This document shows positions 18,859 through 63,540 of a stretch of 64,000 nucleotides of DNA, in pieces. The position numbers were made by a program, and so were the translations under genes. The notes under the pieces are model-generated. The model did no database searches. It saw nothing but the letters and a program-made list of their open reading frames with translations, and was not told where the DNA came from. Every line of letters starts with the position of its first letter. The first letter of the stretch is position 1. This DNA comes from an uncultured SAR324 cluster bacterium (GTDB lineage: Bacteria > SAR324 > NAC60-12), in NCBI GenBank assembly GCA_905182865.1, contig CAJJCY010000004.1, forward strand, positions 558,001-622,000. The letters run 5' to 3'.

Positions 18859-21800
18859 ATGAAAGAGGTTTCCAACAAACACAGCTTTGCGCAGATGGAA
18901 GAAGAAATTCTAAATTTCTGGCGCCAAAATGATATTTTTCAAAAATCAATCGATGAGCGTCCAAAAGACAAGTCGTTCAGTTTTTACGACGGACCTCCTT
19001 TTGCAACCGGACTTCCACATTATGGGCACCTCTTAGCAGGAACCATCAAGGATGTTATTCCACGTTACAAAACCATGAAAGGATTCCAAGTTGAACGTCG
19101 TTTTGGTTGGGATACACATGGTTTACCTGTGGAATTCGAAGTGGAGCAGAGTCTCGGTTTAAATGGTCGGCATGAAATTGAAAATTTTGGGGAAGGAAAC
19201 TTTAATGAGGAGTGCCGTTCTATTGTTTTACGTTACACTGCTGAATGGCGAGAAACTGTGGAACGCATGGCGCGCTGGGTTGATTTTGACAATGATTACA
19301 AAACCATGGACATTGATTTCATGGAGTCAGTCTGGTGGGTTTTTAAGCGACTTTGGGAAAAGGGTCTGATTTACGAAGGAGTTAAGGTGGTACCTTATTC
19401 CTGGAGAGTTTCCACTCCACTTTCAAATTTTGAAGCAAACCTGAATTACAAAGAAATTCAGGATCCTTCCGTCACTTTACGCTTTAAAATCAATGGGGAA
19501 GAAAATTTTTATTTTCTTGCATGGACGACAACTCCCTGGACATTACCTGCCAATATGGGCCTCTGCGTAGGGTCTAAACTAACTTATTGTAAAATAAGAG
19601 ATAAAAAAAGCAAGGATTGTTATCTCCTTACTAAGAATCGAATCGAATCATATTTTGATGATGGAAGCTATGAAGTTCTGACTGAAATGAAAGGTTCTGA
19701 ATTAAAGGGAATGACTTATGAACCACTCTTTCGATTTTGCAAAATCCAAAGTGGATACTACAAATGCCTGGACTGTGCAGTTGGATGATTATGTAACTGA
19801 CGAAAGCGGGACAGGTATAGTACATTTAGCCTGTTTTGGAGAAGACGATGTACGGATTTTTCAGCGAGAAAATATATCTATTTTTGATCCAGTGGATGAA
19901 GAAGGCAATTTTATGGATTACATGGAATTTATCGCAGGAATGAATATCAAAGATGCCGATAAATCTATTGTTAAGCGCCTGAAAGAAGAACATAAAATGT
20001 TCCGCCATGAGACAGCACAACACAGCTATCCATTTTGCTGGCGTACAGATACACCCTTGATTTATAAACCGATTTCTACATGGTTTGTAAATGTTGAGGC
20101 AATAAAAGACAGAATGGTTACTCATAACAAAACTGTACACTGGGTGCCAGGTCACATTCGTGACGGACGTTTCGGAAAATGGCTGGAAAATGCGCGTGAC
20201 TGGGCCATCAGTCGAAACCGTTTCTGGGGTACTCCGCTTCCAGTTTGGAAGAGTGAAGACGGGGATGTCTGGTGCTTCGGTAGTGTTTCTGAACTGGAAG
20301 AAGCCACCGGAGAAAAAATTACTGACCTACACAAACATTTTGTGGATCCATTGATTATTGAAAAAAATGGAAAAACATATAGACGTGTTACGGAAGTAAT
20401 AGATGTTTGGTTTGATTCAGGATCAATGCCCTATGCTCAGGAACACTATCCATTTGAAAATAAAGAACGCTTTGAAGCAAACTTTCCTGCAGATTTTATT
20501 TGTGAGGGATTAGACCAGACACGTGGCTGGTTTTACACACTTGCTGTTTTAGGAACTGCATTATTTGACACACCGGCTTTCAACAATTGTGTAGTGAACG
20601 GTCTTATTCTGGCTGAAGATGGAAAGAAAATGAGCAAAAGGCTGAAAAACTATCCGGATCCTAACGAAATGCTGAACAAATATGGTGCAGATGCTGTCCG
20701 TCTTTACATGCTCAACAGCCCGGCAGTCCGTGGAGAAGATTTGCGTTTTACTGAAAAAGGATTAGTTGAAACAACAAGACAGCAACTCCTGCCACTTTGG
20801 AATGCACTCGTTTTTTTCAGTACCTATGCCAAAATCGACGGTTGGGATCCGAGTCCGGAAAATCTCTCGGTAAAAAACAGTAATCCCTTGGATCGCTGGA
20901 TTCTTTCACGATTACATAAACTGATTGCAGAGGTACAGAAAGAAATGGACTGTTATGATCTGAACCGTTCCGTTGCACCATTTGTAGGTTTCATCGACTT
21001 GTTGACCAATTGGTACATCCGCCGCAGCAGGAGACGATTCTGGAAAGCAGGTCAGGGTAACGACAAGCAGGAAGCTTATGCTACACTTTACACTGTGCTC
21101 TTTGAGTTCAGTAAATTAATTGCTCCTTTCATTCCATATATTGCCGACGGTATTTTCCGTACACTGCGCCTTGACACAGATCACCAAAGTGTCCATTTGG
21201 CTTTTTTCCCTGAAGCGAATTCTGCAAAAAGGGACCTTGATCTGGAAAAACGAATGGATTTAGTTTTGTCTACAGTTACTATGGGACGGGCGCTACGTGC
21301 CAAACATCAGTTAAAAATTCGCCAGCCCCTGCCAAAAATTTTCCTTGTCACACGTGATCCGGAAGCAAAAAATGTTTTGGAGGAGCTTTCAGAACTCATT
21401 TCGGATGAACTTAACATCAAAGAAGTCGTTATAACTCAGGATGAAGAGCAACTGGTTAATTTGAGCGCCAAGGCTAATTTCAAGACTTTGGGGAGAAAAC
21501 TTGGTAAGAAAATGAAAATTGCAGCACAACTCATTTCTGGATTGGATTTTGAAAACATCCGTAGACTGCAAAATGGTAAAAGTATTATTTTGAAAATGGG
21601 AGAAGAAACATTGGAATTGACTCCGGAAGATATTTTGATTCAACGTCAGGAAAAAGAAGGATTACTGGTGGAAACTGATAACCTCTTGACGGTTGCCCTG
21701 GACACAGAATTGAGTGAAAATTTAATTCAGGAAGGCTTTGCGAGAGAGTTTATCAACAAAGTACAGAACATGCGCAAGGATATGGATTTGGAAGTAATGG

Positions 21801-21979
21801 ACAGGATCCTCATCAGTTATCAAAGTTCAGCAAAACTAAACACGGCACTGGATGCTTTTTCAGACTTTATATGCAAAGAAACTCTTGCTAACCGACTGCA
21901 ACCCCAGGGAACACTTGATGGCACAGAGTGGGATTTAAATGGTGAGTCCTGTAAGATCAAAGTAGAACTTAATTTATGA
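18859..21979 (+). CDS. ileS: Isoleucyl-tRNA synthetase, single frameshift near 19730
   Basis: FYDGPPFATGLPHYGHLLAGTIKD, WDTHGLPVEFEVE, TTTPWTLPANM; second ORF DDYVTDESGTGIVHLACFGEDD, GKKMSKRLKNYPDPNE. Confidence 0.97.
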
Positions 21980-28125: not shown

Positions 28126-28170
28126 CATCTCCTGTGAGTAAGCCCACTAATTCTTCACAGTCAGACACCT
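28126..28170 (+). repeat. Dispersed hairpin repeat, copy A
   Basis: CATCTCCTGTGAGTAAGCCCACTAATTCTTCACAGTCAGACACC. Confidence 0.85.
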
Positions 28171-32970: not shown

Positions 32971-33030
32971 ATCATCTCCTGTGAGTAACCCCCACTAATT
33001 CTTCACAGTCAGACACCCTCCAGTAAAATC
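32971..33030 (+). repeat. Dispersed hairpin repeat, copy B
   Basis: ATCATCTCCTGTGAGTAACCCCCACTAATTCTTCACAGTCAGACACCCTCCAGTAAAATC. Confidence 0.9.
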
Positions 33031-35386: not shown

Positions 35387-35433
35387 TCATCACCTGTGAG
35401 TATCCCCCCACTAATTCTTCACAGTCAGACAAA
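35387..35433 (+). repeat. Dispersed hairpin repeat, copy C
   Basis: ATCACCTGTGAGTATCCCCCCACTAATTCTTCACAGTCAGAC. Confidence 0.85.
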
Positions 35434-35460: not shown

Positions 35461-35780
35461 ATAAGGTTTTCATACTGTAAATTCAATTTGCTAACCATCA
35501 GGAGCAAAGCATTACTTGTCATTAAGTGTTGATACAAGAACGAGTAGGACAAATATTGATAATAAGGTTTTCATACTGTAAATTCAATTCGGCAACTAGC
35601 AGGAGGAAGGCATATTCTTTCAGCAAGGATTGATACAGGAACGAGTAGGTTGAATATTGATAATAAGATTTTCATAATACAAATTCAATTCGTCAACCAT
35701 CAGGAGCGAAGCATATTCTTTCGGTAAAGTTTGATACAGGAACGAGTAGATTAAAAATTAATAATAAGAATTTCATATCT
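35461..35780. repeat. 101-bp noncoding tandem repeat, three full units plus a partial unit
   Basis: Units start at 35461, 35562, 35663 and 35764 (ATAAGGTTTTCATACTGTAAATTCAATT..GATACAGGAACGAGTAG..AATATTGATA); period not divisible by 3. Confidence 0.85.
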
Positions 35781-35840
35781 TCCCACTTAATTCTTCACAG
35801 TCAGACACTCTCAAAGTAATATCCACATCTCTCCTGTAAA
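35781..35840 (+). repeat. Dispersed hairpin repeat, copy D (left arm missing)
   Basis: CCCACTTAATTCTTCACAGTCAGACACTCTCAAAGTAATATCCACAT. Confidence 0.8.
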
Positions 35841-35887
35841 ACACTCCTAAACGCCCTTTCCGTCTCAGTACTACGTATTTTCTCAGC

Positions 35888-35916
35888 TTGACTTCAAAAT
35901 GAAAATTATATAGAAT
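35888..35916 (+). promoter_or_regulatory. Candidate sigma70-type promoter of the lipoprotein 5' module, copy 1
   Basis: TTGACT-17 bp-TAGAAT; same sequence at 39557-39585 and 41287-side (41264-41292), and a variant at 43831-43859. Confidence 0.55.
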
Positions 35917-36011
35917 ATTCACTTTTCAAATATGTTATATCTACAGAATTAAGTAGTATGTTCATTCATTTTGAGTGGATTATTATTTGCCCAGTGCATA
36001 CTTATGGTTTT

Positions 36012-38594
36012 ATGAAAAAACTAAAGTTCCTTTTCTTCCCAACTATCTTGGTATTGGCCTTTGGTTTGATGCTTTCCTGTGCCAAAAGTTCAGAAGATAA
36101 TATTAATAGTGGAGTGGCAAAATTTGGAGATACTCTTGGTGGTGGAGGTTCAGGTGGAAGTGGTGGAGATGCAAGCTACTCCTGCTCATTTAAAAATACA
36201 AAGGCTTTTTAGTTGGCCTGCCGTTCAGCAAATTAGAACTTATGATTAAAACATCCAAAATCAAAAATTGTTGTTTTAGAAAAAGGAGAGGGGGCTTACT
36301 TATGGGATATAGATGGAGCATTTTATAATAATTCAATTTACATAGCAGATGATGCAGGATTTTACTGGATTGTTGGAGCAGGTGATAAAATTGAAAAGAA
36401 AAAAATAAATTATACATCTGGATTTAAACCTTCAGAAATTACTGGTATTTGATTTAACTCCGTCGGACATGTTATAAATGTCGTAAAAAATAAAAAAACA
36501 TCTACTTCTTATTGGAAAAACGGTGAACTGGTAAAAACTTTTAGAGAAAATGCAGATTGGTCTTCTGAGAAACATGTAGCAGCAGATTCCAAAGGGAACG
36601 TATATATACCTGGTTGGAGAATGAAAAGCCATGAGGATACATATTCAGCTCTTTGGATAAACGGTACCAGAAAAAATCTTTCAACTGTACATGATGGTGA
36701 GGCAACTGACGCGGTTATTGGTTCTGAGACTGCCTCTGGATCAAATGTATGGATTTCTGGGGCACATGGTCCTTATACTCGTGGAGGAACGCTGGCTGCA
36801 TATTGGCGAAGAAATCCCAATGGTCAGACAAATCAAACAAAGGTCACCAAAGTCAAAACTTATGGCCTGCCAAAAAATTCGGTTTACAGCAGTAGAGCTA
36901 CATCAATCTTTGTTTCTGGTTCAACAGTTTACATGGCAGGAGCAGTTAATGTCATTAACGCTGGTGATGTACCTGTTTACTGGAAAAATAAAGTTCAGCA
37001 TGAGCTTCCTTTAGAATTCGATCTTAAAACCTGTGATTACTGTACGGTAGCTCCAACTGATATTTCACTTCTGGACAGTAAGGCCCTCGTAGTAGGTGAT
37101 TATTACAATGAAAAAGATTTTGTAGATAGGAACCGTACCAATGGAGAATATAAAGCGGTCTACTGGGTGAATAACAAACTGCATAAACTCTGTGAGTGTT
37201 GTAGTTCGTCAGATGCTGTTGCAATCGTGGCCAATGAATGTGTCGACACGTCTTGTGAGCAAGCTGAATGGAAGGACCAAACATGTTCAACTTCATCTGA
37301 AACAGAAGATAAAAAAGCTTTCACAAAACAGTTAGGATCTACTCGTGAAGACATAGCAAAAGGAGTGGCGGTTGACTCATCCGGAAACAGCTACGTGACT
37401 GGATACACCGATGGAGGACTAGACGGGAACAGACATTGGGGGAGGCAAGACTTCTTTCTGATAAAGTATAATTCAAGTGGAACAAAAGAATGGACGAAAC
37501 AGGAGGGTTCCTCTGGAAATGAGTATGCGTATGGAGTAGCGGTGGACTCTTCGGACAATATCTATGTGACTGGTTATACGGATAATAAATTCCACGGCAA
37601 CAATAAATCAGGAAGATTTGACATCTTTCTTGTGAAGTACAACTCAAGCGGGGCCAGACAATGGACCAAACAGTTAGGTACGTCTAATAATGAATATGCT
37701 TCTGCAATTGCAACGGACTCTTCGGATAACATCTACGTAACGGGAAATACCTGGGGAGGACTCGACGGGAGCACCAAACCATCTTATTGCATGGGTTACG
37801 GCACCGTAAAGGCCAGCAAAGAATGTACTGACATCTTTCTTGTGAAGTACAACTCAAGCGGGACAAAACAATGGGTCAAACAGTTGGAAGGTTCATCAAA
37901 ATCATATGATAATGCTCAGGGGGTAGCGGTAGACTCTTCGGATAACATATATTTGGCTGGATTCACCAATGGAGGACTCGACGGGAACACCAGTTCGGGG
38001 AAACATGACATCTTACTAGTGAAATACAACTCCGATGGGTCAAAACAGTGGCTTCAACAGTTCGGATCTTCAAGTAATGACATGGGGCTTCATGTGGATG
38101 TGGACTCCAAAGGTAATATCTATGTGACGGGATACACCGAAGGTGGACTAGACGGGAACACCAACTCTGGAAATAGAGACATCTTTCTAGTCAAGTACAA
38201 TTCAAGCGGCACAAAACAGTGGACACAACAGTTGGGGACCCCCACAACTGAAGAGGGTAATGGGGTGGCGGTAGACTCCTCGGATAATATTTATGTGACC
38301 GGATGGACCGGAGGAAAACTAGAGACTTACTCGGGTGGTAATGACACTATTCTTGTTAAGTACAACTCCAGTGGAACTAAACAGTGGACCCGACAGTTTG
38401 GTGCACCAAGTTTTCTTAAAAGAGACGATGAATATCAAACTAGCCAGATGACCACTTCGGCAGACATAGGTGCTGGAGTGGCGGTGGACTCCTCGGGCAA
38501 CATCTTCGTGACGGGAAGCACCGAGGGTGGAATGGACGGAAACACTAACTCTGGGAAGAGTGACATCTTTCTTGTGAAGTACAACTCGATGTGA
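36012..38594 (+). pseudogene. Lipoprotein with SBBP-type beta-propeller repeats; frameshift near 36210-36260 and in-frame TGA at 36450
   Basis: MKKLKFLFFPTILVLAFGLMLSCAKSSEDNIN; then repeats FTKQLGSTREDIAKGVAVDSSGNSYVTGYTDGGLDGN..FFLIKYNSSGTKEW about 7 times. Confidence 0.8.
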
Positions 38595-38644
38595 TGTGAG
38601 ACAATAAACTCTTCAAATAAAAATATTCCTCTCAATGCCAATCA

Positions 38645-38690
38645 CATCACCTACTGTGACTGCCCCCACTAATTCTTCACTGTCAAACTA
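38645..38690 (+). repeat. Dispersed hairpin repeat, copy E (diverged)
   Basis: CATCACCTACTGTGACTGCCCCCACTAATTCTTCACTGTCAAAC. Confidence 0.65.
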
Positions 38691-38838
38691 CCTACAAAAA
38701 CATTATTCAGGATTGGACATCTGTCAAGTTGCGTTCATATTTCTTTTATTTTAGTGTATTTTTGTTATTGATTGTGAAATCATTATAAAATGAAATCTAT
38801 TTAAATACTAAATTAAAACATTTTTCTAATTCACAAAA

Positions 38839-39390
38839 ATGAAAAAAATTTTAACATCCATCATTCTGCTCCTTTTCCTGGCCTCTCCATTGTTTGGTCA
38901 ATCATCTGAAGAAAAGAAGTTTGCAGTCAGAACTTCTATCTTTGCACAAGCGTTGACATATAATTTAGACAAACAAAATGGAGTTGGAATTTTTTTTGGA
39001 CAACTGACTACTGAAATAAAAAAAGATAATATTAAAAAAGCAGTAAATAGTTTTTATGGAGTAAATCATGCGTATGCATTTAATTGTATAAATTGTGATT
39101 CATTTTTTATCATAACTCTATTGGGACCGTATGGTGCAGTTTATACGACTGCTGATGGTTCAACTTATACTTATTCTGGATGGGCACTAAATGTTGTTGG
39201 TGGTTACGGTTGGTATTTTGAAAATGATATAAGTGTTATTTTGGGTAGTGGTCCATCATTTACGACTTGGAGCAAAGAAAGTGAGAATTTAAAAAGTGAC
39301 AAGGGTTATGGGAAAGTTGTAGAGGACCGTGTAAAGATGCTCAGTTTCCAGCCAATCACTCCATTCTTAGCTATAGGTTACTCATTTTAG
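38839..39390 (+). CDS. Small exported, outer-membrane-like protein
   Basis: Signal peptide MKKILTSIILLLFLASPLFGQ; beta-rich; ends PFLAIGYSF. Confidence 0.6.
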   Translation: MKKILTSIILLLFLASPLFGQSSEEKKFAVRTSIFAQALTYNLDKQNGVGIFFGQLTTEIKKDNIKKAVNSFYGVNHAYAFNCINCDSFFIITLLGPYGAVYTTADGSTYTYSGWALNVVGGYGWYFENDISVILGSGPSFTTWSKESENLKSDKGYGKVVEDRVKMLSFQPITPFLAIGYSF

Positions 39391-39430
39391 TCGTTTAAAG
39401 TCGTTAATTCTCTAACTTCATCGACACTCC

Positions 39431-39480
39431 ATCATTCCCATGTAAGCAACCCTCACTAATTCTTCACAGTCAGACACTCT
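39431..39480 (+). repeat. Dispersed hairpin repeat, copy F
   Basis: ATCATTCCCATGTAAGCAACCCTCACTAATTCTTCACAGTCAGACACTCT. Confidence 0.75.
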
Positions 39481-39556
39481 CAAAGTAATATCCACATCTC
39501 TCCTGTAAAACACTCCTAAACGCCCTTTCCGTCTCAGTACTACGTATTTTCTCAGC

Positions 39557-39585
39557 TTGACTTCAAAATGAAAATTATATAGAAT
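39557..39585 (+). promoter_or_regulatory. Candidate promoter of the lipoprotein 5' module, copy 2
   Basis: TTGACT-17-TAGAAT, identical core to copy 1. Confidence 0.55.
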
Positions 39586-39681
39586 ATGTAAGTTTTCAAA
39601 TATGTTATATCTACAGAATTATGTAGTAAATTCATTCATTTTGAGTGGATTATTATTTGCCCAGTGCATACTTATGGTTCT

Positions 39682-41110
39682 ATGAAAAAACTAAAGTTCC
39701 TTTTCTTCCCAACTATCTTGGTATTGGCCTTTGGCTTGATGCTTTCATGTGCCAAAAGTTCAGAAGATAATATTAATGGTGGAGTGGCAAACACAAACGA
39801 AAATTTAGCAGACACTTTAGAAGATAATAATGACACAGCCGTAGATTTGGAAAATACTCTTAATGGTGGTGGAGGAGGTTCAAGCAACTCGTCCTCATGC
39901 AGTAATAAAGGATCTTTTCAAATTCTTCCGGAAAAAGACGCAGTTGTATGGGAGGTTGTAAAAAATAAAAAAGACTGTGGTTATGCTCTTGTAGGTGGAA
40001 AAAATAGAAAACCGTGGATCAAATTCGTAGACGAAAATGGGAATCAATTGATTAGCAAAACTTATGATGCTGATTTTAAAGATTATACAAGCAACTTTGG
40101 AAACGGTTTACCAACAGAAGGTCAACTTGATGGTAGTGCGATATCACAAACAATGGATGGCGGATATATTGTTGGTACATATGTCAATCCCCGTCATCCA
40201 AGCTACGGAAACACCCACATTTTCAAAACTGATTCAAAGGGAGAAATCGAGTGGAAGAGAGAACAGAAATACAAATCCGGGAATGCAAGTGTGATTCACT
40301 TTGTCCAAGATATCATCCAAACAAACGACGGTCATTATGTGGCAGTAGGTTATACCTCCGGAGATAGCGGTAATAAAATCAAAGGCCAGGGGTTTATGAC
40401 GAAAATTGATAAAGATGATGGGACTGAAAAATGGATGAAAAGATTTGGTTCTAACGCTTGTGTATTCGATACCCTGGAGTCGGTTTTAGAGGATAATGAA
40501 AATAATTTAATTGCAGTTGGAAAATATGAAAAACCATGCCCAGGGTACGCATGTCATCATGGATATGCTTGTGGGGATGTCCTTTTTCTAAAAATAAGTT
40601 CTGATACAGGTGAAACTTTAATTTCAAAGAGACACGGAAATAAATGGTTGGCGGCTGGACACAGTTTACTTCAGCTTGATGATGGAAGTTTTATTGTAGG
40701 GGGAAGGGTAAAGGGTAACAAAAACGTTCCTGTTAATTCTGCCGTTTGGCGAATTAATAAGAATGGAGAACTGGCATGGTCACAACCTTGGACTGGAACC
40801 GCAAGAAAAGTAAATAATGATTGGCACAATGAAACTGTCAATGCGCTCGCTCTTAGTCCTCAAGGAGATGACTCTACTCGCAGCAGGTTGGACAGGTTTG
40901 GCTGGTTTTAAAAAAAATAGGGCATTTGACATGATGGTTTGGTCCATGGATTTAAATGGTGAACAGAAATGGATAAAAAGATATGAAGTGTCTGGGCCGC
41001 AGACTGCAGAAAGTATTACCCTCATCAAAAATAATCATTTCCTAGTATCTGGAGGGAAATCATTCTTTGAAATTGATTCAGATGGGATATTTATAAAAAA
41101 TCATAAATAA
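39682..41110 (+). CDS. Lipoprotein with propeller-like repeats, frameshift near 40870
   Basis: Shared N-terminus MKKLKFLFFPTILVLAFGLMLSCAKSSEDNINGGVANTNENLADTLEDNNDTAVDLENTLNGGGG; repeats of the DGGYIVG..KTDSKGEIEW type; ORFs 39664-40911 and 40817-41110. Confidence 0.75.
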
Positions 41111-41135
41111 CTTTGAAAAACTAAAAAAACAACCC

Positions 41136-41200
41136 CATCATCCCCTGTGAATAACTCCCACTAATTCTTCACAGTCAGACACCCTCCAAGTAAAATTTCC
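41136..41200 (+). repeat. Dispersed hairpin repeat, copy G
   Basis: ATCATCCCCTGTGAATAACTCCCACTAATTCTTCACAGTCAGACACCCTCCAAGTAAAATTTCCACAT. Confidence 0.88.
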
Positions 41201-41263
41201 ACATCTCTCCTGTAAAACACTCCTAAACGCCCTTTCCGTCTCAGTACTACGTATTTTCTCAGC

Positions 41264-41292
41264 TTGACTTCAAAATGAAAATTATATAGAAT
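41264..41292 (+). promoter_or_regulatory. Candidate promoter of the lipoprotein 5' module, copy 3
   Basis: TTGACT-17-TAGAAT. Confidence 0.55.
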
Positions 41293-41387
41293 ATTCACTT
41301 TTCAAATATGTTATATCTACAGAATTAAGTAGTATGTTCATTCATTTTGAGTGGATTATTATTTGCCCAGTGCATACTTATGGTTTT

Positions 41388-42732
41388 ATGAAAAAACTGA
41401 AGTTCCTTTTCTTCCCAACTATCTTGGTATTGGCCTTTGGTTTGATGCTTTCCTGTGCCAAAAGTTCAGAAGATAATATTAATGGTGGAGTGGCAAACAC
41501 AAACAAAAATTTAGCAGACACTTTAGAAGATAATAATGACACAGCCGTAGATTTGGAAAATACTCTTAATGGTGGAGGTGGAGGTTCAAGCAACTCGTCC
41601 TCTGATGAAGCTCCCAAAAATGTTGTGTTCGGTAAAACTATTCTGGATCCAGATGCAACTCAAAGTAAGGATTATGAGGAGTCGGCAAGTGATGTAATTA
41701 AAACTTCAGGGGGTGACTATGTTGTTGTAGGAACATCAATTAGCTGGGAATGGCCAATGCCAGATAATATGGATGATATCTTAATAGTCAAACTAGATGG
41801 AGAATACTAGAAACGTTATCTGGAATAAAAAAATTCATCTGAGAAACTTTGATAGAGCTACCTCTGTTGTTGAAGACAAAGATGGTAATTATGTCCTTAC
41901 TGGATTCACTTCAAGTGATGACGCAAATAAATCAGATGTTTTCTTTGGAAAAGTAGATCCGCAAGGTAACGTCCTTACTAAAAAAGCCATTAAGATTACA
42001 AAAAACTATGATGGAGGATATTCTATTTCTAAGACAGCTGATGGTGGATTCATTATTGGCGGTGAAGCCGGGTCTTCTCACAATGAAGATTTTATGATGT
42101 TGAAAGTTGATCAAAATGGGAATAAACAATGGTGGAAAAAGTTTTCTGATCATCCGGATAATTCTGCTTATGATGCAATTGAGGCTTCTGATGGAAACTT
42201 CTATTTAGTTGGAAAAAAAAGGATCGTCGACAGATATGAAGACATCAGAATCATCAAAACAAATTCTAAAGGCAAAAAAATCTGGGATAAAACTTATGGT
42301 GGTGACAAAGATGATATTGGCGAGGGCATCATTGAATCAGAAAACAACACATTTGTGGTAGTAGCGGGAACTTTTTCTTATGGTAAGGGTGGAGATGTAA
42401 TGCTCATGAAAATAAACAGCGATGGTGAATTAATCTGGCAGAATAACTATGGAGGAGACAAATTTGAGGGACTTCGCGTGTATGATGGGAATTCTGTCAG
42501 TGGACGCCATTTGACTAAAACTCCAAATGGAGGTTTTCTAGTCAGCGGTTCTAAAGGTGGTGGGATGTGGGTTTTCAAAACTAATAGTTCAGGTTCGCTT
42601 TTATGGGATTATAGCGGTAATGTTTGGGGGGGAGCATTCGCTGCAAGGCAAGCAGTTGACGGATCGGTAATCATTGCAGGACCAGGCCTTTCAGGAGACA
42701 CAGTAGATTTATATGTCGTCAAAATCAAATAA
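41388..42732 (+). CDS. Lipoprotein with propeller-like repeats, frameshift near 41800
   Basis: Same N-terminal module; ORFs 41334-41810 and 41797-42732; DGGFIIGGEAGSSHNEDFMMLKVDQNGNKQWWK. Confidence 0.78.
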
Positions 42733-42885
42733 GAACAGAGTTGATTAAGGTTTTTATGGTAAATGTCTTCTTCAGAGATAGTTCCTCTTGATCTTTTTCG
42801 AGTTTACTATTAGGCTTGGTTCTGGTTCAGGTTCTGGTTTTGCATATCGAAAGCACGAATTAATAACATTCTACACAACATCATT

Positions 42886-43701
42886 ATGAAACGATTTACA
42901 ACCACTATATCATGTATCTTGATGGCCATGGCCCTCCTTACATCTTGTGGAGAAAATGCTGTAAAAGAAATTTCAGGATCGGAAACACTTACAGAAAGTG
43001 AATTTTCTAGCGAAGAATTGGATTCTGCAGTAGAAACGCTTGAAATCAGTTATTCCATCACTGTGATTTCAGACGATAATTCAGAAGTCGAAATCAACAG
43101 TGACGCAGATTTGACTTCGTACAGCAAAAGATACGGGAAAGCTAAAATTAAATTTCCTATTGAAATCACGGTAGACGGTGAAACGATACTCATTCAAGAC
43201 CACAAAGAATTGAAAGCCTTGATTGGTAGAAAAAAGAAAGGCCAAAGACCCCCTCCTTTTAAATTGGTGTACCCTATATCCGTAAACACCGCTGAAGGGG
43301 TTTTGGAAATCGCTGATCGCGAGGCAATGAAAAACTACAAACAATCCCTAGAAAAAGGTGTGCGTCTCGAATTTGTATTCCCTATTTCAGTTAAAGTGGG
43401 CGAGGATGAAATTGAAGTCAACAGTAAAGAAGCTTTAAAAAAACTTCTTCAAAAAAGAAAAAGAAGAGGACACAAGCATCGTAAGTTGGTGTACCCTATA
43501 TCCGTAAACACTGCTGAAGGGGTTTTGGAAATCGCTGATCGCAAGGCTATGAAAGTCTACAAACAATCCCTAGAAAAAGGTGTGCGTCTCGAATTTGTAT
43601 TCCCTATTTCAGTTAAAGTGGGCGAGGATGAAATTGAAGTCAACAGTAAAGAAGCTTTAAAAAAACTTCTTCAAAAAAGAAAAAGAAGAGGACACAAATA
43701 G
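42886..43701 (+). CDS. Lipoprotein with duplicated C-terminal domain
   Basis: Lipobox ALLTSCG; (K)LVYPISVNTAEGVLEIADRxAMKxYKQSLEKGVRLEFVFPISVKVGEDEIEVNSKEALKKLLQKRKRRGHK occurs twice. Confidence 0.75.
   Translation: MKRFTTTISCILMAMALLTSCGENAVKEISGSETLTESEFSSEELDSAVETLEISYSITVISDDNSEVEINSDADLTSYSKRYGKAKIKFPIEITVDGETILIQDHKELKALIGRKKKGQRPPPFKLVYPISVNTAEGVLEIADREAMKNYKQSLEKGVRLEFVFPISVKVGEDEIEVNSKEALKKLLQKRKRRGHKHRKLVYPISVNTAEGVLEIADRKAMKVYKQSLEKGVRLEFVFPISVKVGEDEIEVNSKEALKKLLQKRKRRGHK
43264..43701 (+). repeat. 222-bp in-frame near-identical duplication
   Basis: Second copy starts near 43486; only a few differences visible. Confidence 0.9.
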
Positions 43702-43720
43702 TACTTAACCACGATGCGAG

Positions 43721-43770
43721 GAACCCACACTAATTCTTCACAGTCAGTCACTCTCAAAGTAATATCCACA
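43721..43770 (+). repeat. Dispersed hairpin repeat, copy H (left arm degenerate)
   Basis: GAACCCACACTAATTCTTCACAGTCAGTCACTCTCAAAGTAATATCCACA. Confidence 0.8.
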
Positions 43771-43954
43771 TCTCTCCTGTAAAACACTCCTAAACGCCCT
43801 TTCCGTCTCAGTACTACGTACTTTTACAGCTTGACTTCAAAATGAAAATTATATAGATATGTAAGTTTTAAAATATGTTATATCTACAGAAATATGTAGT
43901 ATATTCATTCAATTTGAGTATATTATTATTTTCCCGGCGCATACTTGAGGTTCT

Positions 43955-45118
43955 ATGAAAAAGCTGAAGTTTCTCTTCTTCCCAACTATCTTGGCATTGG
44001 CCTTTGGCTTGATGCTTTCATGTTCCAAAAGTTCAGAAGATAATATTAATGAAGGAGTGGCAAACACAAACGAAAATTTAGCAGACACTTTAGAAGATAA
44101 TAATGACACAGCCTTAGATTTGGAAGATGTAATTACTGGTGGTGGAGATTCAAGTGATACCGCCACTGAAGATATCTCTTTCGATCCGAGCTCAGTTCCT
44201 GATAATGCAACTACTGTAGCTTTTGGCCAGAGCTATCAGTACCAGGTGGGCACCAGCGGTACTTATTCAGGGACGATCACATATTCTCTGAGTAATGAGC
44301 CTGATAATATGACCATCTCCTCTTCAGGCCTTGTAGAATGGACTCCTACCAAAGCTTCTGATATTAAAACGCATTCAAATATTACAATTACACTCACAAC
44401 AGCAAGCGGGTATGTCAGAACTCTGACTTATGATCTTACTGTCACTGGAACATGCACTTCAGGTAATGTACTGTCAATTTGGTCTGGAGACCAGCGCACT
44501 TCAACTGATAGCTCAAATTTACTTGGTAACGTTACTGCCTATACTGATAATGCATCCGATATTTGCGGAAGCAGCGATAACAAAGATTGTACTGCATCAA
44601 ATAACTATTATTTTCATTCTTCTTCGGTGGACCTAACCTGGGGACCAACACCTACTGCAACCACAGGTAATGTATTCTTCTACAATCAATACGACAACAC
44701 CACTCATCTTTACTTCTTTTATATGTTTGGGGTTAAGGGTAACAGTGTCGCTGACACTATAAAGATAGATATCTTCACAGATAATAATTCATCTACAGAT
44801 GCTGTTGTTGTTGCTGACGATACTTCTGGAGAAATAGGTAAACAAGGCAGTGGTTGTGGTTCTAGCGCTGCTTGCTATAAAGGACGACATGCTTACAATT
44901 CTGCAAATTCAGATGGAGGTGTTATAGGTCCATTTTCAGGTACTAATTATAGAATATTTGTAGATCTAGCTGGAACTTCAACTATAAATTCTGACACCCT
45001 GACACTAGGTAATCTAAACTCATTTAAATACTATTCCAAAGACGGTAGTTCATTCGCTCTTGGAGCAGTGGATAATTTCACCGTTGGTTACAATACAACT
45101 CTTGACTGCAGTAATTGA
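43955..45118 (+). CDS. Lipoprotein with shared 5' module and Ig-like (He_PIG-type) domain
   Basis: MKKLKFLFFPTILALAFGLMLSCSKSSEDNINEGVANTNENLADTLEDNNDTALDLED; TITYSLSNEPDNMTISSSGLVEWTPTKAS. Confidence 0.78.
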   Translation: MKKLKFLFFPTILALAFGLMLSCSKSSEDNINEGVANTNENLADTLEDNNDTALDLEDVITGGGDSSDTATEDISFDPSSVPDNATTVAFGQSYQYQVGTSGTYSGTITYSLSNEPDNMTISSSGLVEWTPTKASDIKTHSNITITLTTASGYVRTLTYDLTVTGTCTSGNVLSIWSGDQRTSTDSSNLLGNVTAYTDNASDICGSSDNKDCTASNNYYFHSSSVDLTWGPTPTATTGNVFFYNQYDNTTHLYFFYMFGVKGNSVADTIKIDIFTDNNSSTDAVVVADDTSGEIGKQGSGCGSSAACYKGRHAYNSANSDGGVIGPFSGTNYRIFVDLAGTSTINSDTLTLGNLNSFKYYSKDGSSFALGAVDNFTVGYNTTLDCSN

Positions 45119-51970: not shown

Positions 51971-53098
51971 CTATTCCTTGATCTCTGAGGGTTCGCTCGC
52001 CGGTTCTAATTTCCAGAGATAGCGGCGATAGTAGATCAGGCCAAGGCAGGTGAGCGGCAGGGCCAGAATTAGACCGAGAAAGCCAAGCAGCTTGCCCCAG
52101 ACCGAAATGGACAACAAGATGATGGCCGGAGAAAGCCCCATGGCTTCGCCCTGTAAACGTGACACCAGCACGGTTTCCTGAATGAGTTGCACCACGCCGA
52201 AAACGAGCAGGACAAGACCCAGCGCCCCGAAAAAGTTGTCTCCCTGTTCCAGCGCCTTCAGACCAGCCAGAAGTAGGCATGGGATGGTGCCCACGATCTG
52301 AAGATAGGGGACCATATTTAGCAGGCCGATGAATATACCCATGAGAATGGCAAGCGGCAGGCTGATGATGGAAAAGCCTATCGCGAAGAGCACAGCCACA
52401 CAACAGGCCACCAGTGCCTGTGAACGGAAATAACGGTTGGTCGCCTGAATGAATTCCTCCACGAATCTGGACACGTCATCACGCATGCTAGGCGGAAGGT
52501 AGTCACGCCAGCGTGCTGCCATGTTATGGTAATCGATGAGCAGGAAGACCACATAGAGCATGATGACCAGAAGGCCGGTGATAAACGTGAGCACATTGGC
52601 TGCTCCCGAAAGCACCCCCCAGACGCCGGGCAAGAGCTTTTTGGCCGTGTCCTTGGCCATCTGCACTGCCCCGTCACTGGTCAGGTATCGTTTGACATCA
52701 TCGTGTTTGAGAATCTCATTCACCTCTTCCCATACATTTTCGGGAAGATGCTCTTTGGCAGCTTGCGCCAGCTCGGTATTGGCTGCCATTTTGGATACGG
52801 TGCGGCCCATGTCGGCCAGTTCATTCCCGACCATTGGGACCATGAACCAGACAACGAGAGAGACAGCCAGTGTAATGGAGACCATCGTAAAGAGCGCGGC
52901 TAGAACGCGCTGCTTGATGACATGCTGAACTCGATTGGTGACCGGATCGAGGAAGTAGGCCACAAGCAGTCCGACGAAAAACGGCAGGAGCACGTCGGAG
53001 AGGTAATCCAGAAGGAGCACCAGGCCCCAGACGAGTCCGGCAAACAGAGCCAGTTGGATCACTCGGTCAAAAGTTAAGGTACGGTCGTTCGGAATCAT
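51971..53098 (-). CDS. AI-2E family (PerM-like) transporter on a GC-rich island
   Basis: 375 aa; TM architecture; FIGLLNMVPYLQIVGTIPCLLLA; QLIQETVLVSRLQGEAMGLSPAIILLSISVWGKLLGFLGLILALPLTC. Confidence 0.92.
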   Translation of the reverse strand: MIPNDRTLTFDRVIQLALFAGLVWGLVLLLDYLSDVLLPFFVGLLVAYFLDPVTNRVQHVIKQRVLAALFTMVSITLAVSLVVWFMVPMVGNELADMGRTVSKMAANTELAQAAKEHLPENVWEEVNEILKHDDVKRYLTSDGAVQMAKDTAKKLLPGVWGVLSGAANVLTFITGLLVIMLYVVFLLIDYHNMAARWRDYLPPSMRDDVSRFVEEFIQATNRYFRSQALVACCVAVLFAIGFSIISLPLAILMGIFIGLLNMVPYLQIVGTIPCLLLAGLKALEQGDNFFGALGLVLLVFGVVQLIQETVLVSRLQGEAMGLSPAIILLSISVWGKLLGFLGLILALPLTCLGLIYYRRYLWKLEPASEPSEIKE

Positions 53099-53593
53099 GA
53101 TTCCTCCTTGGGTCTACAAATTATGTAGTGGGTGAAGTTGGAATTCTTATATGCATTATTTATGTTATTCCATTAGGTTTTATTAAAACATAAAGCCCAC
53201 GTCCGTCAAAAATCTTATACGGCTTCTCTTTTGGCTTAGTAGCCTGAATTTTTCTGAATGTTAGTTTGTAGATCGACATTATCTGTTGGACAAATTTGGG
53301 GTTATCTGTTGGTTAAACCTAAATAATAGTCCCAATTAAACCCTCACATTTAACAAGATTCAAGTGGAATAATATGGATGTGTATAGGAACTATTAGTTG
53401 CTTATAGCACTGATATACTGATAAAAAAGGATTGTAATGGAAGGCGCTGGAAAGAAGTATGGCGAAGACGTATATGAATCTCCATTGTTGACAAATACAC
53501 CATCTGTAATTTCCACAACTAATCCATTGGAAAATCTGACAGTGTGGAGATTTCCAACATACCTTTGAGGCAGTATTCCAGAGGTATGTATTC

Positions 53594-53947
53594 TTGATCT
53601 CTGGTTATGATTACGATCCAAGAGAGTTGTACCAGATACCTGAGGTGGTCAGCTTCATAAAAGACCTGAACAGCAAACTACCTTTCTGGCTGTATTTTGT
53701 TAACACAGGAGACAAGAGATTTTTCTCATGGATGATTGCCTGCCTCTGCCGAGCAATGAGTCTGGATCAGGATGATGAAACAATCTATGCAGACTTCGAT
53801 GCTGATGCCTACAATGATCTTATTGAATACCAGTTCAGCAATATTGTGAAATTGATGTCTGGCTTGGGAATGGGAGAGTCAGTACAGGAGAAGGTGCTAA
53901 AGGAGTTATCTGCTAACTTGGCCTCACTGATGGTTGTGGAGAATTGA
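53594..53947 (+). CDS. Hypothetical protein, possibly a fragment
   Basis: MISGYDYDPRELYQIPEVVSFIKDLNSKLPFWLYFVNTGDKRFFSWMIACLCRAMS..; clean ORF. Confidence 0.5.
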   Translation: MISGYDYDPRELYQIPEVVSFIKDLNSKLPFWLYFVNTGDKRFFSWMIACLCRAMSLDQDDETIYADFDADAYNDLIEYQFSNIVKLMSGLGMGESVQEKVLKELSANLASLMVVEN

Positions 53948-53980
53948 GGTATTAATGATAGTGATGGTAACAGTCCTACA

Positions 53981-54040
53981 TTTTCTTAACAGAGTCAGAC
54001 ACACTCTAAGTGAAATCCCCAATACTTGTAAATTAAACCT
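53981..54040 (+). repeat. Dispersed repeat/promoter unit, copy J (hairpin degenerate)
   Basis: TTTTCTTAACAGAGTCAGACACACTCTAAGTGAAATCCCCAATACTTGTAAATTAAAC. Confidence 0.65.
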
Positions 54041-54568: not shown

Positions 54569-54608
54569 TTTCCTGTGAGTAACCCCCACTAATTCTTCTC
54601 AGTCAGAG
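54569..54608 (+). repeat. Dispersed hairpin repeat, copy I
   Basis: TTTCCTGTGAGTAACCCCCACTAATTCTTCTCAGTCAGAG. Confidence 0.85.
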
Positions 54609-54633
54609 AACTTACATGTAAATGGGGTCAGAG

Positions 54634-56337: not shown

Positions 56338-56390
56338 ATCATCTCCTATGAGTAACTCCCACTAATTCTTCACAGTCAGACACCCTACAG
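56338..56390 (+). repeat. Dispersed hairpin repeat, copy K
   Basis: ATCATCTCCTATGAGTAACTCCCACTAATTCTTCACAGTCAGACACCCTAC. Confidence 0.85.
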
Positions 56391-56805
56391 ACGTTGCTCC
56401 AGTCAGATCCCCTAACTAAAATACCCGCTTCTTGTAAAATACACCTTGACACCTACCCAGAACATCGTCGAATATTTGGTAGCAGATTGGTAGCAAAACT
56501 TCCGATTCAAAAGGAATCGAGAGGAGTTGAGAGAAGTTGAAAGGAATTTCAGACTGACACCCTGCGAAGGTTAAATGTTTGATATTCTTAGAAAACGTTG
56601 CAAACACACAGTTTCCGAGAATACCCGTTTTTAATACTGATCCACCCTTTAGGAGTGGTTTAAAAAGAAAAATTACACCCCACCATCATACCCCATTTGA
56701 AAATCATTCCCAAACTTTAACAATCATACAAGTTTGACAAGTTCCAGAAACTACTTTACACCCATCAATTCTTGTGAATATTCCTTCCACAATCTTCAGA
56801 CATTC

Positions 56806-56834
56806 TTGTAAAACAAACCGATTGATGTTATATA
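56806..56834 (+). promoter_or_regulatory. Candidate promoter of MORN gene 1
   Basis: TTGTAA-17-TATATA in CTTGTAAAACAAACCGATTGATGTTATATAT. Confidence 0.5.
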
Positions 56835-56869
56835 TTAGGCTCTCCTAAACCAACCAATTAGGAAATCAA

Positions 56870-58117
56870 ATGAAACATCTACTCATCGTTCTCTCAATCC
56901 TTATTCTTTCTTCTCCTGTGATGGCAGATGAAACTGGTGTTTTGTTTTTTCGTGAAGTGAATGATAAATGGGGATGGTTTGAGGATGGTAATAAGGATAG
57001 AGATGTAAAATATATAGGAGAATTAAAGGATGGAATTTTTGAAGATAGACAACCAAATGGTCAAGGAACAATCACTTACCCAAATGGGAAAAAATATGTT
57101 GGGGAATGGAAGAATACAAAAAAACATGGTCAAGGAACAAAAACATGGTCTAATGGAGACAAGTATGTTGGGGAATACAAGAATGGGGAATATCATGGTC
57201 AAGGAACATTCACTTGGAATGATGGTCACAAGTATGTAGGTGATTACAAGGATGGAAAGAAAAATGGACAAGGAACAGTAACTTACCCTGATGGAAGGAA
57301 GTATGTTGGGAAATACAAGGATAGACTTCCTAATGGTCAAGGAGCCCTTACTTCACCTGATGGCAGAAAATATGTAGGAGAATTCAAAGATGGTAAACCA
57401 AATGGTCAAGGAATCCTGACTTTCCCAGATGGAGAAAAGTTTGTTGGGGAATACAAGGATGGAGAAAGGAATGGTCAAGGAACATACACTTGGTCTGATG
57501 GAAGAAAGTATCTTGGGGAATGGAAGGATGGGAAATATCATGGTAAGTGGCTGCAATTAATTATGAAGTAAGTATGTTGGGGAATGTATATATGGATTCA
57601 ATGACTACAACCACTGTTTAAAGCTGATGAATGGTCAATAAGTATGTCGGGGAATACAAGGATGGACTTCCAAATGGTCAAGGAACAATCACTTACCCAA
57701 ATGGGAGAAAGTATGTAGGTGAATACAAGGATGGAGAAAGGAATGGTCAAGGAACATTAACTTGGTCTAATGGGAAAAAATATGTTGGGGAATGGAAGGA
57801 TGGGGAAATGAGTGAACAAGGAACAAAATCTTGGACTAATGGAGACATGTATGAAGGAAATTTTAAGGATGGGAGATATGATGGTCAAGGTACATACACT
57901 TGGTCTGATGGAAGAAAATATGTTGGGGAATGGAAGAATGGGGAAACAAAACGGTCATGGTACTGTCACTTCACCCTATGGAAAGTATGTCGGGGAATGG
58001 AAGGGGAATGATTTTCACTGTCAAGGAACCATGATTTCTACTGATGGGACAAAATTGGTAGGTGAGTTAATGGAAAACAAACGGTGGAAGAGCATCAGGG
58101 AATATGACAACAACTGA
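56870..58117 (+). pseudogene. Exported MORN-repeat protein(s), interrupted near 57550-57630 and 57950
   Basis: Leader MKHLLIVLSILILSSPVMA; about 23-aa MORN units YVGEWKDGKxHGQGTxTWxDG; ORFs 56870-57571, 57631-58011, 57812-58117. Confidence 0.8.
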
Positions 58118-58190
58118 ACAATCCACAGGTAAATATGTGAATGGAGAACTAATAAAACAATAAACCATCCCTAAAACAAACCAATAAATT

Positions 58191-58730
58191 ATGAAACACC
58201 TTCTCATCATCCTCATTTCAATCCTTCTTCTTTCTTCTCCTGTGATTGGAGATAATCATAAAGGTGAAACTCTTTATGGATGGATTACTTCTTCTTCTAC
58301 TTTAGAGTGGAAAACTTTTGGAGAAAAAGGAACTCACCCAATTTATAAAGGGGATGTTGAGAATGGGAAACCAAATGGTCTTGGTGTTATTACATTCCCT
58401 GATGGAAGTAAGTTTGTAGGAGAACACAAGGATGGGGAAAAGAATGGTCAAGGAATATTTACTTTTTCTTGCACCTTTTTTTGCAGGCGGGTTGGAACAA
58501 AAAAACATGGTCAAGGAACAGAAACTTACCCTAGTGGAAGTAAGTATGTAGGAGAATGGAAGAATGGGAAAAAGAATGGTCAAGGAACATTCACTCAATA
58601 TAGTTCTCTCCTTTACCCTGATGGAAGAAAGTATGTGGGGGAATACAAGAATGGGAAAGAGTGGAACGGAACATATTACGACAATTACGGAAAAAAAGAA
58701 TACAAGTTGGTGAATGGAGAAATAGAATAA
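58191..58730 (+). CDS. Exported MORN-repeat protein
   Basis: Leader MKHLLIILISILLLSSPVIG; MORN units. Confidence 0.82.
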   Translation: MKHLLIILISILLLSSPVIGDNHKGETLYGWITSSSTLEWKTFGEKGTHPIYKGDVENGKPNGLGVITFPDGSKFVGEHKDGEKNGQGIFTFSCTFFCRRVGTKKHGQGTETYPSGSKYVGEWKNGKKNGQGTFTQYSSLLYPDGRKYVGEYKNGKEWNGTYYDNYGKKEYKLVNGEIE

Positions 58731-58863
58731 AATAATACCCCTACCTAAAACCAACCAATAAACTATGAAACACCTACTCATCCTGCTCTCAATCATTCTT
58801 CTTTTTAATTCTCCTCTGTTTCGACATTACCATTTTGACTCACCAAATATGTAAAGGAATCAA

Positions 58864-59051
58864 ATGAATAGTATTAAAGGTGTTTTATTTTTGAAGAATG
58901 TAGATGGAGAAATGAAATGGGTTAATGGAGATTTAGGTAATAAAGGGAAATATGAAGGAGAAATTGAAAATTGGGAACCAAATGGAATGGTACAGTATAT
59001 GACAATGACGGAATTAAGAAATCGAAGTATGTAAATGGAGTAAAACCGTAA
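58864..59051 (+). pseudogene. Short MORN-family fragment
   Basis: MNSIKGVLFLKNVDGEMKWVNGDLGNKGKYEGEIENWEPNG.. then frame change to WNGTVYDNDGIKKSKYVNGVKP*. Confidence 0.5.
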
Positions 59052-59563
59052 TGAAACACCTACTCATCCTCATCTCAATATTTCTTCTTTCTTCTCCTGT
59101 GATTAGTCAGGAAACTGGTGTTCTTTATCTGTATAAAACATCTTCTGGGAATAAATGGGAAACTTTTGGAGATGGTAAAGTTCAACCAAAATACAAGGGA
59201 GAAATAAAGAATGGGAAACCTAATGGATTTGGTTTTCAAACTTACAAAAATGGAAACAAGTATTTTGGGGAACACAAAAATGGATTACCAAACGGTCAAG
59301 GGAAATCCATTTACCCTGATGGGAGTATGTATTTAGGAAAATATAAGGATGGTAAATTCCATGGACAAGGAACTTTCATTTGGAATGATGGATATTATCA
59401 TGAAGGGGAATTTATGGATGGAACACCAAATGGTCAGGGAACTGAGACTTTACCTAATGGACAGTTGGTAGGGGAATATAAGGATGGTAAACCTTTGAAC
59501 GTTAAAGGGTACGACAAAGAAGGAAACATCATTGGAAAGTGGGTGAATGGAGTAAAACAGTAA
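59051..59563 (+). CDS. Exported MORN-repeat protein
   Basis: Leader MKHLLILISIFLLSSPVISQETGVLYLYKTSSGNKWETFGDGKVQPKYKGEIKNGKPNGFG; MORN units. Confidence 0.85.
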   Translation: MKHLLILISIFLLSSPVISQETGVLYLYKTSSGNKWETFGDGKVQPKYKGEIKNGKPNGFGFQTYKNGNKYFGEHKNGLPNGQGKSIYPDGSMYLGKYKDGKFHGQGTFIWNDGYYHEGEFMDGTPNGQGTETLPNGQLVGEYKDGKPLNVKGYDKEGNIIGKWVNGVKQ

Positions 59564-59588
59564 TGACCCCTACAAAGAATAAACCTAA

Positions 59589-59634
59589 TCATCTCCTGTG
59601 AGTAACCACCCACTTAGTTCTTACAAGTCAGACA
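59589..59634 (+). repeat. Dispersed hairpin repeat, copy L
   Basis: CATCTCCTGTGAGTAACCACCCACTTAGTTCTTACAAGTCAGACA, then CATGTAAAACAAACCGATTGATG at about 59654. Confidence 0.75.
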
Positions 59635-60111
59635 ATCAACACAAACCTCCCCTGTTCATGTAAAACAAACCGATTGATGAAACATTTTGTACTAAAATGT
59701 GGAATTATTGGGAATAAATGACCAAAAGGCAAATTTGGTCTTTAAGGTATGAAACAATACTCAAAGGGATGATGAATGAAAGTTGATACTTTAATCATCA
59801 TCCCTAAGAACTAACCAAATTAAGGAAGGATTTAATCAGTCGTGAGGATGTTCATATCAGCATCCTCAAACAACTTTCCTTACCAGAAAATGGAAATTAA
59901 TGACTAATGGCAACAGAGCCGGTACAGGAGATCTGTATAACATGTTAGACAAACTCAACAAATTAATTGAAGAGTGGGACAACTAATTATTAAAACCCCC
60001 TTATAGACTTATACTATTCCTTAAAAAACTTCCAAGTAAAATCTGAACTTCTTGAAAAACAAAACGATTTATGTTATAAAATTAGTACTTTTAATCAACT
60101 AAAGTAAACCT

Positions 60112-60438
60112 ATGAAACATATACTAATCATCCTCTCTCTCATTCTTCTTTCTTCCCCTCTGTTTGGGCAGTCTGATGCTAATGATAAAGTAATTCGATA
60201 TAAGATAACTTCTGGTTTATTGTGGAAAAGCATTAGCAAAGGAGAAATACAATCAAAAAATATGGGTTATGTTGGTTCATATAAATCTGGAGTACCTCAT
60301 GGTAAAGGAACAATGACTTATTATGATGGCAGGAAAATAGTAGGCGAATTCAAGCGTTATGCATGGAATTCTAAATTTTATGATAAAAACGGGAAAATAC
60401 TTGGAAATTTTGTGAAAGGGAAATACATAAAAGAATAG
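60112..60438 (+). CDS. Exported short MORN-family protein
   Basis: MKHILIILSLILLSSPLFGQ; YVGSYKSGVPHGKGTMTYYDGRKIVGEFK. Confidence 0.75.
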   Translation: MKHILIILSLILLSSPLFGQSDANDKVIRYKITSGLLWKSISKGEIQSKNMGYVGSYKSGVPHGKGTMTYYDGRKIVGEFKRYAWNSKFYDKNGKILGNFVKGKYIKE

Positions 60439-60643
60439 ATTATTACAAAATAAAACTTCAAAATAAGCAATAATGAGTCTTTGCTATTATTTTAAATATA
60501 ACATGCCCATTACCGTCACGTGTTTTTTAAAATAGCATAAAAGGAGATGAAAACAATTTCATATTTAAAATATCAAATACGGGAACATATATAACTAGGA
60601 CCAAACTATCTCCTATTTACTGGGGATCTTAAAACAAACTCCA

Positions 60644-60672
60644 TAATCTCCTGTGAGTAACTCCCACTAACT
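60644..60672 (+). repeat. Dispersed hairpin repeat, copy M (right arm lost)
   Basis: AATCTCCTGTGAGTAACTCCCACTAAC. Confidence 0.6.
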
Positions 60673-60794
60673 TTTTCCTCCACATTACCACCCCTTCCTT
60701 TCAAAAGTTACACAGTCTAGTAAAACTAATCCTTTGATGTTATACTTCGGATTAACCGATGATTTAATTTAAACCAAAACTAAGGGAGTTAATT

Positions 60795-61059
60795 ATGTTG
60801 TTTCATATTCAATCAACTCACTCATATAAGACTTGTGGTGCAAACGACCCAGAGAAAAAGAAAATCATGAGAAGTGCTTTTCTTAGTGCTGAGGAAAAAG
60901 GTATTAAAATTCATTCTCTGGTAGTGAATAGACCATCTCATACTGTTTACATGGTTGCTGAGTCAGAAACATTTGAGGAACATTGACAAAATGTTTGAAC
61001 CAATACTGACAATGACTGATGCTATAATTACTCCAGTTATGCCTATGACTTTAGATTGA
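60795..61059 (+). CDS. Small cytosolic protein (about 87 aa), one frameshift near 60983
   Basis: MLFHIQSTHSYKTCGANDPEKKKIMRSAFLSAEEKGIKIHSLVVNRPSHTVYMVAESETFEE-IDKMFEPILTMTDAIITPVMPMTLD* after removal of one C. Confidence 0.65.
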
Positions 61060-61103
61060 GAAGGTGTTTACTTCTACCGAACACTTCATTGAAGAAGAAC
61101 CAA

Positions 61104-61493
61104 ATGTCTAAAATAAAAGGTGTTCTATATCATATTGGTGGAAGATTGCGGGACGATAAAGGTTGGTCTGAAAAAGAATCTGACAATCCACCAGATAAGT
61201 TTTGGGAAGGTGAGATTGAAAATAAACTACCCAATGGTTTTGGAACATACACTCATAGGAGTGGTTCAAACTATGTCGGACAATACAAAGATGGTCTAAG
61301 AGAAGGTCAAGGGACTTGGACTCTATACGATGGGAGTAAATTTGTTGGTATTTGGAAAAATAATAGAAAATGGAAAGGAAAGTCATTTGATGAAGAAGGT
61401 AAGGAAATTGGAAAATATTTAAATGGAGAACTTGAAGATAATGATGAACCACTAACTTTAATTAATGCACAAAGTAAAGGACACTTTTCATAA
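61104..61493 (+). CDS. MORN-repeat protein without signal peptide
   Basis: MSKIKGVLYHIGGRLRDDKGW..NGFGTYTHRSGSNYVGQYKDGLREGQGTWTLYDGSKFVGIWK. Confidence 0.8.
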   Translation: MSKIKGVLYHIGGRLRDDKGWSEKESDNPPDKFWEGEIENKLPNGFGTYTHRSGSNYVGQYKDGLREGQGTWTLYDGSKFVGIWKNNRKWKGKSFDEEGKEIGKYLNGELEDNDEPLTLINAQSKGHFS

Positions 61494-61588
61494 ACAATAA
61501 TTACCCTTCCGCATTTTCTTCCGACACTATCACCACATTGCGGAAACCAATTAGACATTTTATACAAAAATCCCATCACAAATGAATA

Positions 61589-61909: not shown

Positions 61910-61911
61910 AA

Positions 61912-61995
61912 ATGAGAAATAGAAGAACCATCATAATCATAGGTTCTATACTTGTAATAATGTATTTACTTTCACATCTACAAGAGTTTCTATAA
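61912..61995 (+). CDS. 27-aa hydrophobic peptide
   Basis: MRNRRTIIIIGSILVIMYLLSHLQEFL*; begins 2 nt after the 61909 stop, syntenic with 51109-51186. Confidence 0.5.
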   Translation: MRNRRTIIIIGSILVIMYLLSHLQEFL

Positions 61996-63484: not shown

Positions 63485-63540
63485 ATAAAACAATAACCTC
63501 CTTAAAACACCCCAATTCATCAAATGTTATTTACCCTCAA

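Follow-up and report, generated by a model that had tools for sequence, protein, structure and literature searches.

The window analysed here is a stretch of 64,000 nt from an uncultured SAR324 cluster bacterium (NAC60-12; GCA_905182865.1, contig CAJJCY010000004.1, positions 558,001-622,000, forward strand), a member of an uncultured group that is widespread in the deep ocean. It contains four lipoprotein genes, A, B, C and D, and each of them begins with a 5' module made up, in this order, of a core repeat, a promoter, a leader and a lipoprotein signal. Module A occupies 35785..36117 on the + strand, with its core at the left edge (35785..35807), a predicted sigma70-type promoter (TTGACT-17-TAGAAT, read from sequence and alignment) at 35888..35916, and the lipoprotein signal MKKLKFLFFPTILVLAFGLMLSCAKSSEDNIN from the gene start at 36012. 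Module B (39454..39873, core 39454..39476, gene start 39682) includes an Asp/Asn linker and a Gly/Ser stretch. Module C spans 41159..41580 (core 41159..41181, gene start 41388) and module D spans 43728..44130 (core 43728..43750, gene start 43955), all on the + strand.

A preliminary description of this DNA had reported four segments that are almost identical, noncoding parts included, with the predicted promoter and a protein start of the form MKKLKFLFFPTILVLAFGLMLSC[AS]KSSEDNIN, and all of them are present as described. The modules are 91-99% identical in DNA across ~312 nt counted from the core (A-C 98.7, A-B 97.4, B-C 96.1, B-D 93.2, A-D 91.3 and C-D 90.6%). The predicted promoter is the same in A, B and C and near-identical in D, and a family of 300-nt repeats that we found coincides with the four segments. 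Identity plotted in 50-nt steps stays at 80-100% up to +300 (A against the others) or about +400 (B, C and D) and then falls to background; it is also at background 5' of the core. The left edge of the module coincides with the boundary of the TTCACAGTCAGACA repeat. A fifth and older copy (E) lies elsewhere in the same genome (G000:C2:341031-341266, 80% identity), and a sixth is found in the congeneric genome CTD7B (G001:C92:6811-7095, 89% identity). As the module, passenger B and the core are all present in CTD7B, which was assembled independently, it is unlikely that copies A-D are an artefact of assembly.

Gene A (36012..38594, +) joins the lipoprotein signal to an SBBP beta-propeller passenger and contains frame breaks or stop codons in the assembly; the passenger matches Pfam SBBP on 36621-38594 in seven stretches (E 9.7e-67, 221 bits, above cut-off). 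Genes B (39682..41110, +) and C (41388..42732, +) encode lipoproteins with propeller-like passengers and have frame breaks near 40.9 and 41.8 kb, respectively. Gene D (43955..45118, +) encodes an intact lipoprotein of 387 aa, whose passenger matches no Pfam family at E values up to 1; a single-sequence structure model of it was unusable (pLDDT 33). There is no DNA similarity among passengers A, B and C. At the protein level these three are remote relatives in one propeller family, with 23-26% amino acid identity (A-C 26%, E 8e-15; B-C 25%, E 2e-8; A-B 26%, E 0.002), and no relation of passenger D to any of them was found. The Ig-like label proposed for D is unconfirmed, since Pfam gives no match. 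The C-termini, previously taken to be unrelated throughout, are unrelated in the case of D only.

Two further genes lie among the four: a 183-aa secreted-protein cassette (38839-39390) between cassette A and module B, and a second lipoprotein gene of cassette C (42886..43701, +), which contains two in-frame tandem units of 222 nt that are 97% identical (43260-43697). The window has a further frame break that splits ileS (18859-19788 / 19718-21979), and sequencing indels are therefore likely to be behind part of the breaks in A, B and C. Passenger B of CTD7B carries a frame break of its own.

The TTCACAGTCAGACA element forms part of a core of ~24 nt (CCCACTAATTCTTCACAGTCAGACA) and is interspersed genome-wide, with 68 matches in the genome of the window against one for the reversed control. 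We counted 69 cores in this genome (G000), 30 in CTD7B, 16 in G010 and 0-4 in the remaining congeners searched; none was present in six genomes from other genera of the order. Public matches to the core are mainly SAR324 metagenome-assembled genomes, together with short contigs binned to other marine groups. Core-bearing contigs binned as Euryarchaeota, Marinimicrobia, Pelagibacterales and Chloroflexi (e.g. L083, L085, L092 and L113) are either mis-binned SAR324 DNA or products of transfer. Core arrays are dispersed over all contigs of the genome, and cores also adjoin genes for cytosolic enzymes.

All ten cores of the window are on the + strand. Besides those of the four modules, they comprise the first array core (28145..28167), cores at 32993..33015 and 35409..35431, a diverged core that separates cassette A from the 183-aa secreted-protein cassette (38667..38689), a second diverged core (54587..54609) and a core 5' of a MORN-repeat gene cluster (56360..56382). 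The core at 35409 is followed by the next one 376 nt further, and most of that interval is taken up by a 3.1 x 101-nt tandem repeat (35461-35777). The interval has no ORF of its own listed on the + strand and may be a cassette that is empty or has decayed. Tandem cores only 39-40 nt apart, like cassettes without content, occur at L060:11232/11271, L070:2380/2420, L098:132/171 and L122:957/996. A perfect or near-perfect hairpin of the GGTCATTCACAC...GTGTGAATGACC type lies directly left of the core at G000:C2:495570, C4:861942 and C5:42773. The G+C content of the window rises to 47% at 52001-54000, compared with 32-38% in the surroundings.

We took 174 copies of the core, from this genome and others, and compared the flanks of each with those of every other. 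A homologous flank was found in 89 pairs, which are not independent and in part come from repetitive MORN families; homology was confined to one side in 80 of them (51 downstream only, 29 upstream only). The nine two-sided pairs are trivial: either the DNA is one and the same, or the two cores are 39-40 nt from each other. The edges of homology lie at -6 and +18 relative to the core. A RidA-like cassette of 662 nt is duplicated from core to core on two contigs (C2:347731 and C4:857210), with 99.4% identity from -3 to +692, just beyond the next core, and with flanks that are unlike.

Comparison with CTD7B points the same way. There, the order is module, passenger B, core and then a cassette that in the genome of the window is found at C4:540385, 57 kb away, whereas passenger B of the window next meets the core of module C (41159..41181). 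In this comparison of strains, of the kind that the preliminary description had proposed, the CTD7B copy of passenger B differs from that of the window both in its linker and in the cassette that comes next. At C1:241533, the left neighbour of the core is conserved in CTD7B and the cassette beyond the core differs. The sequences show that the ~24-nt core bounds cassettes, that the core is where the breaks fall when whole cassettes are copied or moved, and that promoter, leader and signal peptide travel at the cassette front. Neither an empty insertion site nor a circular form was seen.

A second family of fronts behaves like the first, with a shared front and differing passengers. In many cassettes the gene begins with MKHLLIILSILLLSSPLFGQ or a similar sequence (MKHLLIILS...), and its start lies at a constant 103-110 nt past the core, with the predicted promoter TTGTAA-17-TATATA in between. 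The passengers are MORN proteins, a DUF6242-type protein (L090) and proteins that fall in no Pfam family, for example a lipoprotein of 624 aa (L094). In the window, MORN-repeat proteins that carry the MKHLLI-type signal module are clustered at 56360-64000, and MORN genes are numerous in the genome. The downstream gene is on the same strand at 22 of 26 cores with a promoter, against 14 of 26 without one. The upstream gene is on the same strand at 38 of 50 cores, yet homology in the promoter and core also goes along with the downstream gene. These counts fit arrays of core-promoter-gene units that end in a promoterless core.

The fronts and the passengers seem to have separate histories. Passenger B is 86.5% identical in DNA to its CTD7B ortholog, while module B is 90.4% identical to the CTD7B module and 96-97% identical to modules A and C of its own genome; in the module tree, A-D group apart from CTD7B and E with a local support of 0.985. 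The Asp/Asn linker is common to B, C and D and absent in the CTD7B ortholog, which retains the passenger beyond it. Fronts are also found before other genes: front E leads into a truncated lipoprotein followed by a SUI1-family gene, and in L120 the promoter and leader are kept, the signal peptide is gone and an Fe-S oxidoreductase-like gene comes next. Since module B groups with A, C and D and not with the module of its ortholog, the sequences support homogenisation or exchange of the 5' modules independently of the passengers, on the basis of four copies from this genome, one diverged copy and one ortholog.

Taking all the above together, we believe that one SAR324 genus has a dispersed system of gene cassettes bounded by repeats and that the four segments form the 5' ends of such cassettes; we put the probability of this reading at roughly 0.7. 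The four genes would have one front in common because each belongs to a series of repeat-bounded cassettes, which are copied and change their order from one genome to another. The preliminary description, which proposed passenger exchange or shuffling of a 5' module, was right in outline: there is a fixed 5' module with exchangeable parts downstream, but the unit is the whole core-bounded cassette, and the four lipoprotein genes are one family in the system. Exchange would take place at two joints, the core and the linker past the signal peptide. At the core, a cassette might be inserted, deleted or swapped in an integron-like manner, through recombination that is either site-specific or based on short homology. 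At the linker, shared fronts would recombine or undergo gene conversion with one another, which would homogenise them and could provide a new domain with a standard promoter and export signal. The likely effect would be the immediate expression and lipoprotein export of newly arrived or diverging exported proteins.

What drives the exchange is a separate matter. Recombinases of the tyrosine, serine and Y1 types show no consistent linkage to the cores, so the driver would be either a site-specific recombinase or RecA recombination in short repeats. No Phage_integrase or Resolvase match falls inside the window's span of its contig. A Y1/RAYT transposase was rejected as the driver, being present as a single copy, away from the cores, in both this genome and CTD7B; no serine recombinase is consistently close to cores either. 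A gene for a 189-aa tyrosine recombinase (G000:C2:196960-197526) lies ~200 nt upstream of the core C2:197740, and it is judged to be cargo because it is present in this genome alone.

The strongest competitor, to which we give slightly less than an even chance, is homologous recombination only: cores and promoters would be REP-like dispersed repeats undergoing RecA exchange and gene conversion, with no dedicated site. It concerns the mechanism and would leave the cassette anatomy unchanged. That no recombinase was found, that the fronts show concerted evolution and that passages of a report on SAR324 bins describe them as repeat-rich and dynamic (PMC4782131) all agree with it, and the junction at L154:8434 may fall 3' of the core, in sequence common to both parents. 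Crossovers cannot be placed inside an identical core, which leaves room for RecA recombination in short repeats. Against it, the homology edges are sharp at the ~24-nt core despite the longer flanking promoter homology, and the RidA-like cassette is duplicated exactly from core to core within unrelated flanks. A more ambitious view, that of a cassette system of its own kind, strikes us as doubtful. Here promoter-bearing SAR324 cassettes would be moved by a putative recombinase whose 24-nt core site is related to neither attC nor dif, and the fronts of the cassettes would make any captured domain expressed and exported at once.

A degenerate integron, with the cores as attC sites of a SAR324 integron integrase, seems very unlikely, although the genus does possess the enzyme. 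IntI is intact in three congeners (G004:C8, G005:C161 and G012:C136). Of the three core-rich genomes, two have integron-integrase remnants only (in the genome of the window, 84 residues at G000:C3:317341-317592; the other in CTD7B) and the third gave no match. In CTD7B the intI remnant has two cores at a distance of 2.5-3 kb, and the genes there point away from it. GTTRRRY occurs near the core in only 1 of 72 copies on the + strand and in none on the - strand, and the front seems to keep with the gene on its right, contrary to attC behaviour. The integrons of the genus come with attI-like and attC-like sites (e.g. L104, L165 and L166, read by eye) that differ from the core, the IntI-locus neighbourhoods retrieved from six relatives hold no cores, and 27-64 kb of the window gave no Rfam match to a known RNA family. 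The integron integrase adjoins the same radical-SAM-like gene in this genome, CTD7B and G004. We found no paper on a SAR324 chromosomal integron in the literature searched. Folding of the core has a mean z of -0.86 against -0.16 in the control, with values below -2 in 24% on the + strand, 8% on the - strand and 7% of the control. A dif site (11-6-11) was also considered and rejected: the best match to the generic consensus is 11, the shuffle mean is 10.4 and 43% of shuffles reach 11.

That one lipoprotein gene was duplicated in tandem and the mature domains then diverged fast is about as improbable. The genes are near-adjacent and in one orientation, and passengers A, B and C are remotely related, as such a history would have it; yet noncoding DNA is 96-99% identical where A, B and C have no DNA similarity and D is unrelated, the breaks are abrupt, and unrelated DNA lies directly 5' of every core. 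The preliminary description had opposed shuffling to simple duplication at equal divergence, and the divergences are indeed far from equal, with the modules at 91-99% in DNA, passengers A, B and C at 23-26% in protein and D unrelated. A phase-variable surface lipoprotein locus of the Vpma/Vsp type, suggested by a conserved 5' region before lipoprotein genes as in mycoplasma loci (PMC2268961), is similarly improbable, with a predicted promoter in each of the four copies, all window cores on one strand, no adjacent recombinase, no inversion seen and the same cores serving cytosolic enzymes.

If the cassette reading is true, bacteria would have, beside integrons, a second route of gene assembly and re-ordering in genus-wide cassettes that bring their own promoters and export signals, and fronts exchanging separately from passengers would be a simple route to new lipoproteins. 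It bears on how SAR324 varies its exported proteins, and the A-D lipoproteins may serve surface diversification, as was first suggested. Since core sites can be screened in public metagenomes, the idea is testable at once.

SAR324 genomic bins that include CTD7B were described in 2016, and repeats and genome dynamism were noted (PMC4782131); the passages concerned describe no core, cassette structure or shared export fronts. Mycoplasma vpma, vsp and vsa loci likewise have a conserved 5' region before lipoprotein genes with divergent mature domains, and recombination sites in mycoplasma lipoprotein loci lie within 5' untranslated regions (PMC2268961). However, vpma has a single active promoter, Xer1-dependent inversions and a recombinase gene beside the locus (PMC2268961), whereas each SAR324 copy has its own predicted promoter on one strand, with no inversion seen. 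Xer/dif (pdif) gene modules of Acinetobacter plasmids, too, have short sites (~28 nt) at their boundaries and are shuffled as units. The SAR324 core, in contrast, has no dif resemblance beyond shuffles, lies on long chromosomal contigs instead of plasmids and keeps one orientation in the window. Chromosomal integrons and CALINs are mostly single-gene arrays in one orientation, with a conserved repeat in between at which cassettes are exchanged between strains, and in this the SAR324 arrays are like them. Unlike an integron, the SAR324 core has no GTTRRRY box, the cassette itself includes the promoter and signal peptide, the promoter side of the repeat seems to stay with the downstream gene, and the arrays are dispersed over all contigs. 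The cassette system thus resembles an integron but uses neither integron nor dif recombination sites, and the repeat-bounded system is a variant of known cassette systems.
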